A stretch of DNA of 33,195 bases from assembly GCA_938017685.1 (NCBI GenBank), contig CALIIL010000109.1:1-33195 (forward strand), given 5' to 3'. This stretch comes from an uncultured Chitinophagaceae bacterium (GTDB taxonomy: Bacteria > Bacteroidota > Bacteroidia > Chitinophagales > Chitinophagaceae). The notes under the pieces were generated by a model, which worked only from the letters and a program-made list of their open reading frames with translations, did not search any database and was not told where the DNA came from. Below are positions 171 through 4,120 of this stretch, in pieces; positions within the stretch are counted from its first letter, which is position 1; the number at the start of each line of letters is the position of its first letter. The position numbers and the translations under genes were made by a program.

Positions 171-932
171 TTACTTAGAAATACTCGCCCCCAGATACTC
201 ACGATTCATTCTCGCAATATTAGTCAGTGATATTCCTTTAGGACATTCTACTTCACAAGCGCCTGTATTTGTACAAGCGCCAAATCCTTCTTTATCCATT
301 TGAGCAACCATATTTTGCACACGCTCTTGCGCTTCTACTTGCCCTTGTGGCAATAGTGCAAACTGCGAAACCTTAGCACCAACAAATAACATAGCCGATG
401 CATTTTTACAAGTAGCAACACATGCTCCGCAACCAATACAAGTTGCAGCATCCATGGCTAAGTCAGCATCTTCTTTACGGATTGGAATAGCATTAGCATC
501 TTGCGTATTACCCGATGTATTGACCGAGATAAAACCTCCTGCATGTTGTATTCTATCAAATGATGAACGATCCACCATTAAATCTTTTAATACTGGAAAT
601 GCTTTAGCTCTAAATGGCTCTATATGAATAGTGTCTCCATCATTAAATGAGCGCATGTGCAACTGACAAGTGGTTACGCTCTTATCCGGACCATGCGCCT
701 CTCCATTAATATACATCGAGCACATACCACAAATACCTTCTCGGCAATCGTGATCGAATGCTACTGATTCTTCGTTTTTGGCAACCAATTGCTCATTGAG
801 CACATCCATCATTTCTAAGAAGGACATATGGTCCGAAATTTCTGAAACTTTATATTCCACCATTTCGCCTTTAGCCATAGCATCTTTCTGACGCCAAACT
901 TTCAATGTAAGATTCATACTTTCTTGTGACAT
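171..932 (-). CDS. sdhB: Succinate dehydrogenase / fumarate reductase iron-sulfur subunit
   Basis: This is the electron-transfer subunit of complex II. It passes electrons between the SdhA flavin and the membrane cytochrome through three iron-sulfur clusters, on the inner face of the cytoplasmic membrane. The 253-aa product shows the N-terminal [2Fe-2S] ligands (CREGICGMC and a later TTC), then [11 protein letters not shown] for [4Fe-4S] and [10 protein letters not shown] for the [3Fe-4S] region. The start is set at ATG 930-932 (MSQES). A longer TTG-initiated form would begin inside the inverted repeat of the neighbouring element and is unlikely. ATG 915-917 (MNLTLKVW) is a possible alternative that matches many relatives. 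Unusually, it is separated from sdhA by a four-helix protein gene. It is last in the operon and followed by a clear terminator. Confidence 0.93.
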
Positions 933-964
933 AATTTTCTTATTTTTTACGAGTGAATAGCCAT

Positions 965-983
965 TAGCCAATAGGAATTAGAG
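965..983 (+). repeat. Inverted repeat arm, left
   Basis: TAGCCAATAGGAATTAGAG, matching the reverse complement of 1349-1367 at 17 of 19 positions. It is preceded by a partial second unit, ATAGCCAT (957-964), suggesting a short tandem repeat outside the arm. Confidence 0.7.
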
Positions 984-1340
984 CTTAGCCTCCAATTTAG
1001 TAATGAGTGTATTGAGCATTTTTCCTATTTCAGTAATGAGTTTATCAATATTCGCGCTTTGTGTTATAAATTCTAAATTTTTACTTATTAATATTTGTGT
1101 TTCCAATTCAAATAAAGACCCTTTCGATATTCTTAAGAATTGGATATAATTTTTTGTTGAGTTCCTTGCCCAGCCTTCAGCAATATTAGAGGGAACCGAA
1201 ACCGCCGATCGTCTTATTTGGCTTGTAAGTCCAAAGCGTTCTTCAGTTGGAAAAAATTTTGTAGATTCATATACCAATGAAACCATGGCAATTGATTTTT
1301 GCCAAACAATTAAATCTTTATATGACTTTATTTCTCCCAT
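978..1340 (-). CDS. Four-helix bundle protein (23S rRNA intervening-sequence protein family)
   Basis: The 120-aa product belongs to the S23/IVP four-helix bundle family (TIGR02436 type). Its hallmarks are DLIVWQKSI near the N-terminus, then FGLTSQIRRSAVSVPSNIAEG and GSLFELETQ. The family was first noticed inside intervening sequences of spirochaete and Leptospira 23S rRNA genes. It is structurally related to the Avd protein of diversity-generating retroelements. Its function here is unknown; a nucleic-acid-binding role is often suggested. The gene lies within the sdh operon in the same direction, 38 bp after sdhA and 45 bp before sdhB, and is bracketed by a 19-bp inverted repeat. No reverse transcriptase or variable repeat is visible nearby. 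Confidence 0.9.
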   Translation of the reverse strand: MGEIKSYKDLIVWQKSIAMVSLVYESTKFFPTEERFGLTSQIRRSAVSVPSNIAEGWARNSTKNYIQFLRISKGSLFELETQILISKNLEFITQSANIDKLITEIGKMLNTLITKLEAKL

Positions 1341-1348
1341 TTTATCTT

Positions 1349-1367
1349 CCCTAACTCCTATTGGCTA
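1349..1367 (-). repeat. Inverted repeat arm, right
   Basis: CCCTAACTCCTATTGGCTA on the plus strand, pairing with 965-983 at 17 of 19 positions. It lies between the sdhA stop (1379-1381) and the four-helix gene start (1340). Confidence 0.7.
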
Positions 1368-1378
1368 TTTTCTAACCC

Positions 1379-3394
1379 CTATTTATAAGAACGTTGTTTT
1401 AATTCGATATCGTAAAATTCTAATTGCTCTTTATGCAATACTGCCTCGCTAGGCTCTCCCTTATATTCCCAAGCTGCTACATAAGCATATTCATCATCTT
1501 TACGCTTCGCTTCACCTTTTTGCTCGCCGTCTAACTCAACTGATTCTTCACGGAAGTGACCTCCACAACTTTCATTGCGATTAAGGGCATCCTTGGCAAA
1601 TAATTCTCCAAGCTCTAAGAAGTCAGCCACACGGCCAGCTTTTTCTAACTCTGCATTTACTTGATTAGACCCACCCGGTACACTTACATTTTGCCAAAAA
1701 TCTTCACGTAATGCCTTGATGTCGGCAATAGCTTCTTTTAAACCTTTTTCATTGCGGCTCATGCCTACTTTATTCCACATGATCAAACCAAGCTTTTTAT
1801 GATAGTAGTCCACCGAATGGTTTCCTTTATTATTTACAAAGAAGTCAATTCTTTCTTTAACATCTTTTTCAGCAGCTTCAAATTCTGGTGTATCGGTTGA
1901 GATTTTTCCAGTACGAATATCGTGTGACAAATAATCACCGATGGTATATGGCAATACAAAGTAACCATCAGCTAGTCCTTGCATCAATGCAGAAGCTCCT
2001 AAACGGTTAGCTCCATGATCTGAGAAGTTAGCCTCGCCAATTGCATAACAACCAGGAATGGTTGTCATTAAATTATAGTCTACCCATACGCCACCCATGG
2101 TATAGTGCGTTGCAGGATAAATCATCATTGGAGTTTTATAAGGATCCTCAGCAACAATTTTCTCATACATTTGGAAAAGGTTACCGTATTTAGCCTTAAC
2201 AATGGCTGCTCCAAGTTCTATTATTTTTTCATCGGAAGCATTTTTAATATTATTAAGCTTGGCTTGTTCCTTACCATAGCGATGTATCGCTGATTTAAAA
2301 TCAAGATACACAGCTTCACCAGTACTATTTACACCATAACCTTTATCACACACTTCTTTGGCTGCGCGAGATGCTACATCACGTGGTACTAAGTTACCAA
2401 ATGCTGGATAGCGACGCTCTAAATAATAATCTCTTTCTTCTTCGCTCAATTCGGTAGGTTTCTTTTTTCCTTCACGAATAGCTTTGGCATCTTCGAGTGA
2501 TTTAGGCACCCATATTCGTCCATCATTTCTTAACGACTCGGACATCAATGTAAGCTTAGATTGATAATCTCCCGAACGAGGAATACAAGTTGGATGAATT
2601 TGTGTAAAACAAGGGTTAGCAAAGTAGGCACCTTTCTTATGTACTTTCCATGCTGCTGTTGTATTACTACCCATCGCATTTGTACTTAAGAAATATACAT
2701 TACCATAACCGCCAGAAGCGATTACAACTGCATGAGCCGAGTGTCTTTCTATTTCGCCAGTAACTAAGTTACGTGCAATAATACCGCGTGCCTTGCCATC
2801 TATTTTCACAATATCTAGCATTTCATGGCGATTATGCATTTCAATCTTACCACGTGCTATTTGACGATTCATTGCTGAGTAACAACCTAATAATAGCTGC
2901 TGCCCAGTTTGCCCTTTGGCATAGAACGTACGACTTACCAATACACCACCAAATGAGCGATTATCTAATAGACCGCCATAATCTCTGGCAAATGGTACAC
3001 CTTGCGCTACACACTGATCAATAATATTGGCAGATACTTCGGCCAGGCGATAAACATTGGCCTCACGAGAGCGATAATCACCCCCTTTTACCGTATCATA
3101 GAATAATCTGTAAGACGAGTCTCCATCACCTTGATAGTTCTTTGCGGCATTAATACCTCCTTGCGCTGCAATCGAGTGCGCTCTCCTTGGAGAATCTTGG
3201 TAGCAAAAAGCCTTAACATTGTAGCCTAACTCAGCCAATGTTGCTGCTGCAGAACCTCCAGCAAGACCCGTACCTACAACAATAACGTCAATATTACGCT
3301 TATTAGCAGGGTTTACTAGGTCAATTTTATTTTTATAGTTCGTCCATTTGTCGGCAATCGGGCCTTTTGGAACTTTTGAATCTAACGTACTCAT
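1379..3394 (-). CDS. sdhA: Succinate dehydrogenase / fumarate reductase flavoprotein subunit
   Basis: This is the catalytic subunit of complex II, oxidising succinate to fumarate (or the reverse) with FAD. At 671 aa it has the length typical of the Bacteroidetes form. The dinucleotide-binding motif [12 protein letters not shown] is near residues 40-51. [10 protein letters not shown] carries His73, the expected covalent FAD attachment residue. The fumarate/succinate-site region HPTCIP and the late [17 protein letters not shown] motif are present. The start ATG at 3392-3394 (MSTLDSKV) lies 12 bp after the sdhC stop, so the genes are co-transcribed. Downstream, sdhB is displaced by a four-helix protein gene. 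Confidence 0.96.
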
Positions 3395-3406
3395 AGAACT
3401 TTTATA

Positions 3407-4069
3407 TTAATGAATTAAATAATGATATATAGCAATGAAAGTAAAAACTGCAGGTACTATAATAGCAAATGCATTCACCGTTTTCTTAAGCATTGGTGTG
3501 TATTTATTATGATTGAAGCCAACCGACTGAAACGAAGATTGAAAGCCGTGCAATAAATGCAAGGCCAAGGCTACAAATGAAACTACATAGATTAATACAC
3601 GCACTGGATCTTGAAACTTCTCAACCGTTTCATGGAAATATCGTGTTGGATCCTCTGGTTGAAACTCGATATACTTAACAGTCATCTCATGCAACCAAAA
3701 ATCATAAAGATGTAATCCAAGAAAAGCCATAATTACAGCTCCCGTATAAATCATGTTTCGAGACATCCAATTAGAATTAGCACTTGGCTTGTTATAAGCA
3801 TACTTAACCGCTCGTGCTTGGTTATTCTTAAGCTCGAGGTAAATACCCATTATCAAGTGAAAAAACACCCCAAACATAAGCACAGGCTGCATTACAAACT
3901 GTATTACTGGATTAGTACCCATGAAGTGTGATGCCTGATTAAAAGCATCCTCACTAAATACGGATATAAGATTAATAGATACATGAATGACTAAAAATGA
4001 TACGAGGAATAATCCTGAAAGTGCCATCAGCACTTTTCTACCGATTGTAGTAAACTTAGAGTTTGCCAT
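3407..4069 (-). CDS. sdhC: Succinate dehydrogenase cytochrome b558-type membrane subunit
   Basis: This is the membrane anchor and quinone/haem subunit of complex II. The 220-aa product (from ATG 4067-4069, MANSKFTTIGRK) has five predicted membrane helices: VLMALSGLFLVSFLVIHVSI, the PVLMFGVFFHLIMGIYL region, MIYTGAVIMAFLGLHLYDF, VLIYVVSFVALALHLLHG and AFAIIVPAVFTFIAIYHYL. Histidines within these helices are candidate haem ligands, as in the single-chain b558 family that replaces SdhC plus SdhD. Reading could extend 17 codons upstream, but those codons would overlap a well-formed promoter, so the shorter start is preferred. It is first in the operon. Confidence 0.93.
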   Translation of the reverse strand: MANSKFTTIGRKVLMALSGLFLVSFLVIHVSINLISVFSEDAFNQASHFMGTNPVIQFVMQPVLMFGVFFHLIMGIYLELKNNQARAVKYAYNKPSANSNWMSRNMIYTGAVIMAFLGLHLYDFWLHEMTVKYIEFQPEDPTRYFHETVEKFQDPVRVLIYVVSFVALALHLLHGFQSSFQSVGFNHNKYTPMLKKTVNAFAIIVPAVFTFIAIYHYLIH

Positions 4070-4091
4070 AGTTTTTGCTAAAAAGAAAGTA

Positions 4092-4120
4092 AAGATACCA
4101 ACGGAACGTCTATTTGTCAA
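4092..4120 (-). promoter_or_regulatory. Putative sdhCAB promoter
   Basis: On the minus strand TTGACA (4120-4115) is followed after 17 nt by TATCTTTAC (from 4097), 22 bp before the sdhC ATG. This fits both a general -35/-10 layout and the Bacteroidetes -33 TTG / -7 TAnnTTTG arrangement, with A for the final G. No start site has been mapped. Confidence 0.5.

Follow-up and report, generated by a model that had tools for sequence, protein, structure and literature searches.

The insert between sdhA and sdhB in the window (the whole stretch of 33,195 bp that was analysed) is one copy of a minimal unit that is found in many bacterial phyla. The best explanation is that it represents a dispersed repeat in the form that carries the gene; the repeat consists of an inverted pair of arrays with a period of approximately 7 bp, in which the G-rich strand points inward. 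Such paired arrays bracket most genes of the IVP/S23p family across phyla, and in many genomes with IVP the same motifs also form short-loop hairpins that lack the gene; these gene-less repeats are scattered as if the IVP protein spreads or maintains them. In addition, the heptad motif follows the IVP lineage. The IVP/S23p family is widespread and without known function, and the origin of the intervening sequences in rRNA is open (PMC4990558). Heptamers are over-represented in many bacterial genomes, without a detailed account (PMC4692102). A search of the open-access literature gave no publication in which IVP/S23p genes as a group are connected with heptad arrays; these two came nearest.

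The original prediction placed an S23/IVP family gene inside the sdhA-sdhB operon, and profile searches agreed. The insert protein matched PF05635 ("23S rRNA intervening sequence protein") with E = 1.9e-38 (131.3 bits, cut-off 33.8) over residues 8–110 of 120, TIGR02436 with E = 1.1e-37 (128.5 bits, cut-off 24) over residues 12–116 of 120, and NF008911 with 149 bits, also above the cut-off. Since both matches span the full domain and exceed the curated cut-offs, it is a member of PF05635/TIGR02436. Its relatives in the PDB are 2gsc (E = 1.1e-24) and 2rld. The profile searches recognised no transposase, nuclease or reverse transcriptase (RT) domain in the insert protein, only IVP and, below threshold, bAvd (32.1 bits, cut-off 40); DivGenRetAVD was likewise sub-threshold (32.8 bits, cut-off 80). 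Avd (PF22296/NF033474), the accessory protein of diversity-generating retroelements, shares the four-helix-bundle fold. However, an RT partner does not accompany the present system, as the array-rich genomes G006 and G024 were without an RVT_1 match.

The two proposed 19-bp core arms, TAGCCAATAGGAATTAGAG (965–983, forward strand) and TAGCCAATAGGAGTTAGGG (1349–1367, reverse strand), were identical at 17 of 19 positions when re-read, and the left (downstream) arm does run over the stop codon of the IVP gene (978–980). Both arms are runs of units of approximately 7 bp, (TAGNNNN)5, and the first TAG of the upstream arm is the stop codon of sdhA (Table 1). The inverted repeat of the unit exceeded a dinucleotide-Markov null (p ≤ 0.01, 100 draws). 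The expectation that further copies of the arm would be present in the genome was borne out by gene-less copies of the 19-mer at C64, C141 and C140 (at most 2 mismatches), the last belonging to a solo inverted pair. The original prediction was silent on the 7-bp period of the arms, on the cross-phylum generality for IVP genes and on the scattered gene-less hairpins with matching motifs.

Table 1. Features of the sdhA-sdhB insert and its host operon (positions in the window)
Feature	Position (bp)	Strand	Basis
sdhB, host operon gene 3' of the unit	174–932	-	
Whole unit, approximately 424 bp, in the sdhA-sdhB intergene	958–1381	-	Tight junctions (≤57 bp) in a dozen relatives
Downstream arm, five heptads TAGCCAT TAGCCAA TAGGAAT TAGAGCT TAGCC	958–990	+	Direct read; inverted with respect to the upstream arm
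IVP/S23p/four-helix-bundle protein gene, 120 aa	978–1340	-	PF05635, TIGR02436, NF008911, PDB relatives
Upstream arm, five heptads TAGGGGT TAGAAAA TAGCCAA TAGGAGT TAGGG	1349–1381	-	Direct read
sdhA, host operon gene 5' of the unit	1379–3394	-	
sdhC, cytochrome b subunit, operon start	3407–4120	-	PF01127, E = 4e-10

The suggestion that one gene plus inverted repeats forms a minimal unit gained support from comparisons across relatives and IVP copies. At the sdhA-sdhB junction an IVP unit was present in five genomes, belonging to two different subfamilies (G000 and G002; G006, G010 and G012), gene-less heptad runs were present in two (G022 and G024), and the junction was tight (≤57 bp) in a dozen relatives, among them G001 from the same genus, so that the empty site that had been looked for does exist. 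Other small genes were found at this junction in further genomes: G016 has a GxxExxY gene there, G025 a transposase of the PDDEXK_2 family, and G033 a nucleotidyltransferase-like gene with NTase_sub_bind (loci L150, L156 and L141). This genome also contains a unit (L039) between rfbB and rfbA, gene names that were assigned from reading the sequence and not by family search; in a sister species this junction is empty and reads TAA-ATG. Operon junctions thus gain or lose whole units. The filled and empty rfbB-rfbA sites were compared for a target-site duplication, which was unreadable because the flanks, approximately 76% identical, are too diverged for a short duplication; movement itself we infer from sequence comparison.

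Genome G007 carries two homologous whole units at different sites, with 80% identity over 455 bp; the match comprises the arms and the gene and ends there. The dS between the two units is high (1.6) and the upstream arm is nearly identical, indicating that the arm is either constrained or being homogenised. In the sdhA-sdhB unit of G006 (L114/L167), the same inserted palindrome is present in both arms (GCCCCGACTTCGTCGGGG on the upstream side), with one base differing in one arm, which suggests that the arms are kept alike, as if copied onto each other. A junction beside an argD-like gene is likewise occupied by IVP units in five genera (L009, L011, L017, L026 and L068). A TAAGTAT-type motif is common to three of these units; the motif of L026 is different, hinting at replacement at the same site.

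PF05635 was present in 31 of the 41 genomes searched (the host and 40 relatives), with a maximum of 14 copies per genome. Judging from its sequence neighbours, the host is presumably one of the Bacteroidota. The near set consisted of the 98 IVP copies with both flanks in the host and relatives. The cross-phylum set consisted of 80 named genome loci and 12 plasmid loci, of which one was dropped for short flanks, leaving 91. These loci were chosen by similarity to a Xanthomonas protein (80) or to the IVP of one relative (12 plasmid loci), not by repeats, and derive from Cyanobacteriota, Pseudomonadota including Xanthomonas, Planctomycetota, Nitrospirota, Acidobacteriota, Gemmatimonadota, Bacillota, candidate phyla and a Methanophagales archaeon. 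With p-values based on 100 Markov draws per locus and uncorrected for multiple testing (the aggregate contrast is large), 159 of the 189 IVP genes in relatives and many phyla had significant inverted flanks at p ≤ 0.05. In the near set this was the case for 85 of 98 copies (77 at p ≤ 0.01), against 19 with direct repeats between the flanks, and in the cross-phylum set for 74 of 91. An arm score of at least 30 was reached by 121 of 189 IVP genes (60/98 near, 61/91 cross-phylum) versus 4 of 203 controls, which were ordinary ORFs from one relative (Fisher 6e-32 for the near set).

Arrays with a period of 7 bp were found in 182 of 378 IVP flanks, where approximately 3 were expected. By set, there were 73 in 196 near flanks and 109 in 182 cross-phylum flanks, with 0.6 and 2.2 expected, respectively, from shuffles. 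Other periods were near background, with the exception of 14 (a multiple of 7), 8 and a little 6 in the near set. The sequence of the arms varied by lineage and a fixed terminal sequence was absent, the 7-bp period being constant. Of 145 units, 132 had more G than C in the upstream arm, which means that the G-rich strand points inward from both sides. The IVP itself is mostly under purifying selection, with a dN/dS of 0.03–0.24 in 11 of 12 pairs and 0.46 in one.

Inverted flanks were also observed, at p ≤ 0.01, in 18 of 29 GxxExxY (TIGR04256) genes of relatives (L169–L198 and L150). The 7-bp period was absent, being present in only 1 of 60 GxxExxY flanks, and GxxExxY was rejected as a second heptad cargo and kept as a separate phenomenon. 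The inverted repeats here are longer periodic motifs (CGCAAAGACGCTAAG, AACACAGATAACACAGAT and GAATTAGGATTT), not heptads; possibly, GxxExxY genes belong to a second, parallel system that has a distinct class of repeat.

The predicted operon orientation of the sdhA-sdhB unit proved to be the rule, since 120 of 165 scorable IVP copies were co-directional with both neighbours; 13 were opposite to both. Co-direction with the operon is not obligatory, since on plasmid pNe_5 of Nostoc edaphicum (L260) the ribonucleotide reductase beta and alpha genes are separated by an IVP gene in antisense orientation, whose arms are TAGGGAG. On cyanobacterial plasmids of two genera, heptad-armed IVP genes lie between cas6 and cas4 in CRISPR-Cas loci (L259 and L267, the latter annotated as type I-D).

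The excess of co-directional units (120 versus 13) is in line with the main rival of the repeat explanation, a reading at the RNA level. Here, the arms would pair in the operon transcript, RNase III would cut the stem and the IVP segment would be removed, leaving the operon unharmed; the arms would then be selected for pairing and not for mobility. The arms of the sdhA-sdhB unit do pair in an RNA fold (z = -3.24), which is compatible with excision by RNase III. Moreover, the 23S rRNA intervening sequence (IVS) with an S23p ORF of Coxiella burnetii has the same protein family and layout, a similar size (428–444 nt), tandem GACAGAT heptamers at its 5' end, upstream of S23p, a 28-bp terminal inverted-repeat stem and excision by RNase III (PMC4990558). 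Terminal inverted repeats around an S23p ORF are what was found here as well. However, the present unit lies between sdhA and sdhB and not in helix 9, 25 or 45 of 23S rRNA, and its motif has gene-less copies elsewhere. Pairing alone explains neither the 7-bp period, nor the motifs shared with gene-less hairpins, nor the units that face against the operon. Furthermore, no sense-strand excess of G.U was found in the arm mismatches (53 versus 57, and 66 versus 103, the latter in the wrong direction), and selection for RNA pairing by G.U asymmetry was therefore dropped as unsupported. We consider the RNA-level reading unlikely as the whole account; RNA-level processing and the repeat explanation may coexist.

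Gene-less arrays were counted in samples of 100 kb taken at random, or 400 kb in the case of one genome, together approximately 2 Mb from 17 genomes, largely of one family. Five genomes without IVP had 0–2 lag-7 arrays per sample and no inverted pairs (0.5 Mb). The twelve IVP-bearing genomes had 0–24 lag-7 arrays per 100 kb (approximately 1.5 Mb), and these samples contained 31 inverted pairs with a short gap, in 28 of which the G-rich strand pointed inward. Array density differed between the two groups (Mann-Whitney p = 0.009). Six of the twelve IVP-bearing genomes (G013, G033, G026, G016, G003 and G005) had few solo arrays despite the presence of IVP, which counts against the best explanation and shows that IVP is not sufficient.

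The gene-less arrays resembled the IVP flanks of their own genome in 73 of 173 cases, with 8.65 expected; a match was scored when the array exceeded 95% of equal-sized foreign flank sets. Over half of the solo arrays had no assigned IVP, which again counts against the best explanation. In G006, which has four IVP genes, the arms of three correspond to the solo families TAAGTAT, CGTGAAT and AAAGTCAAAATTCAA. The solo heptad family TAAGGAGTAAGG (L377–L378) of the same genome had no matching IVP among the four found there. A motif with 591 hits in the G024 genome is the same array that flanks one of the IVP genes of G024 on the upstream side. The arm motif of G007 had 111 hits in its genome, and the count was 0 both for the reversed control and in a genome without IVP. 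Between units at different sites, similarity of the arm motif climbed with IVP identity (p = 4e-8; GC-matched p = 3e-4), the means per identity bin being 10.6, 10.8, 11.6, 12.4, 15.9 and 37.7 (only 3 pairs in the top bin). Part of this correlation could arise simply because gene and arms have a common ancestry.

The heptameric repeats described in Xanthomonas (GGGAATC) and Nostoc (GGGGAYT) are likewise intergenic 7-bp arrays, in Xanthomonas often as convergent inverted pairs, of which independent work from 2015 counted 70–75 per genome for GGGAATC (PMC4692102). The IVP gene at an accB-accC-like junction in Xanthomonas and Luteimonas has GGGAATC arms, and in Xanthomonas arboricola this arm motif had 418 hits versus 0 for the reversed control. 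In that publication the heptamers were discussed as G-quadruplex repeats, generally not associated with mobile elements, and a search of its text found no mention of an IVP/S23p gene under the terms used (PMC4692102).

It could be argued that the IVP is a passenger, and that the hairpins are products of replication slippage with fold-back copying, or of another mobile factor, in which the gene settles or is tolerated. Many bacteria have an excess of heptameric repeats, for which polymerase slippage has been put forward (PMC4692102). A few non-IVP genes are also bracketed by inverted arrays, such as rpsI (ribosomal protein S9) in G007 (L133:10800–11450), with AGCTNNN heptad runs on both sides. 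This reading is improbable, however, as genomes of the same family that lack IVP also lack the arrays, array motifs match the IVP flanks of their own genome, and motifs track the IVP lineage. Nor did Y1 transposases or reverse transcriptases track array abundance among the array-rich and array-poor genomes compared. Both were rejected as drivers: G006 and G024 are array-rich without RVT_1, and G018 and G004 are array-poor with both Y1 and RT. A conventional minimal insertion sequence or MITE, served by a transposase elsewhere that reads fixed terminal repeats, would fit the inverted ends, the clean presence or absence and the intergenic sites, but is very improbable given that the unit has no transposase domain, that its end motif varies by lineage with period 7 kept and no fixed terminal sequence, and that the arm motif belongs to the resident IVP and not to a separate transposase.

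Among the known systems closest in organisation to the dispersed repeat is REPIN/RAYT. RAYT proteins are Y1/HUH transposases, and REP repeats are palindromes with a GTAG or CGTC tag. The IVP unit differs on both counts, because it encodes a four-helix protein instead of a Y1/HUH transposase, and its repeat has a 7-bp period and a lineage-specific motif instead of a tagged REP palindrome. The likeness to the system of REP-associated tyrosine transposases (PMC3116915, PMC2817692, PMC8266576) lies in a small gene between inverted repeat copies, in gene-less inverted pairs scattered intergenically in the same genome, and in a repeat class and protein lineage that go together. Inverted-copy flanks (85/98 and 74/91) and dispersed gene-less inverted pairs (31) were found here.

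On balance, the unit is probably part of a REPIN-like repeat system in which IVP is the trans-acting factor, with a mode of movement that is conjectural. That IVP has no recognised transposase, nuclease or RT domain counts against this explanation. IVP would be a non-enzymatic, nucleic-acid-binding oligomer; the S23p of Xanthomonas is homopentameric (PMC4990558), and the insert protein is related to it (2GSC). It would recognise its own heptad hairpin and help the replication or repair machinery of the host to copy that hairpin into intergenic sites, and its action would keep the two arms alike. Gene-less hairpins would also be its targets in trans, in the way proposed for RAYT transposases and REPINs. 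Host operons would stay alive because insertion is intergenic and co-directional and allows read-through.

The association of IVP with heptads ties a protein family to a repeat excess and makes both testable, as the repeat motif can be predicted from the IVP to which it belongs and genomes supply the protein-repeat pairs. If the explanation is true, a transposase-like role in a repeat system would be held by a protein without a recognised catalytic domain. More tentatively, and with somewhat less than even confidence, we propose a distinct class of bacterial interspersed repeats, present in many phyla, in which such a four-helix protein drives or maintains hairpins that are set by a 7-bp period and not by a fixed sequence, with one motif per protein lineage. 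If so, this class would explain the unaccounted excess of heptameric repeats in bacteria, and the intervening sequences of 23S rRNA would be members that have landed in rRNA genes.
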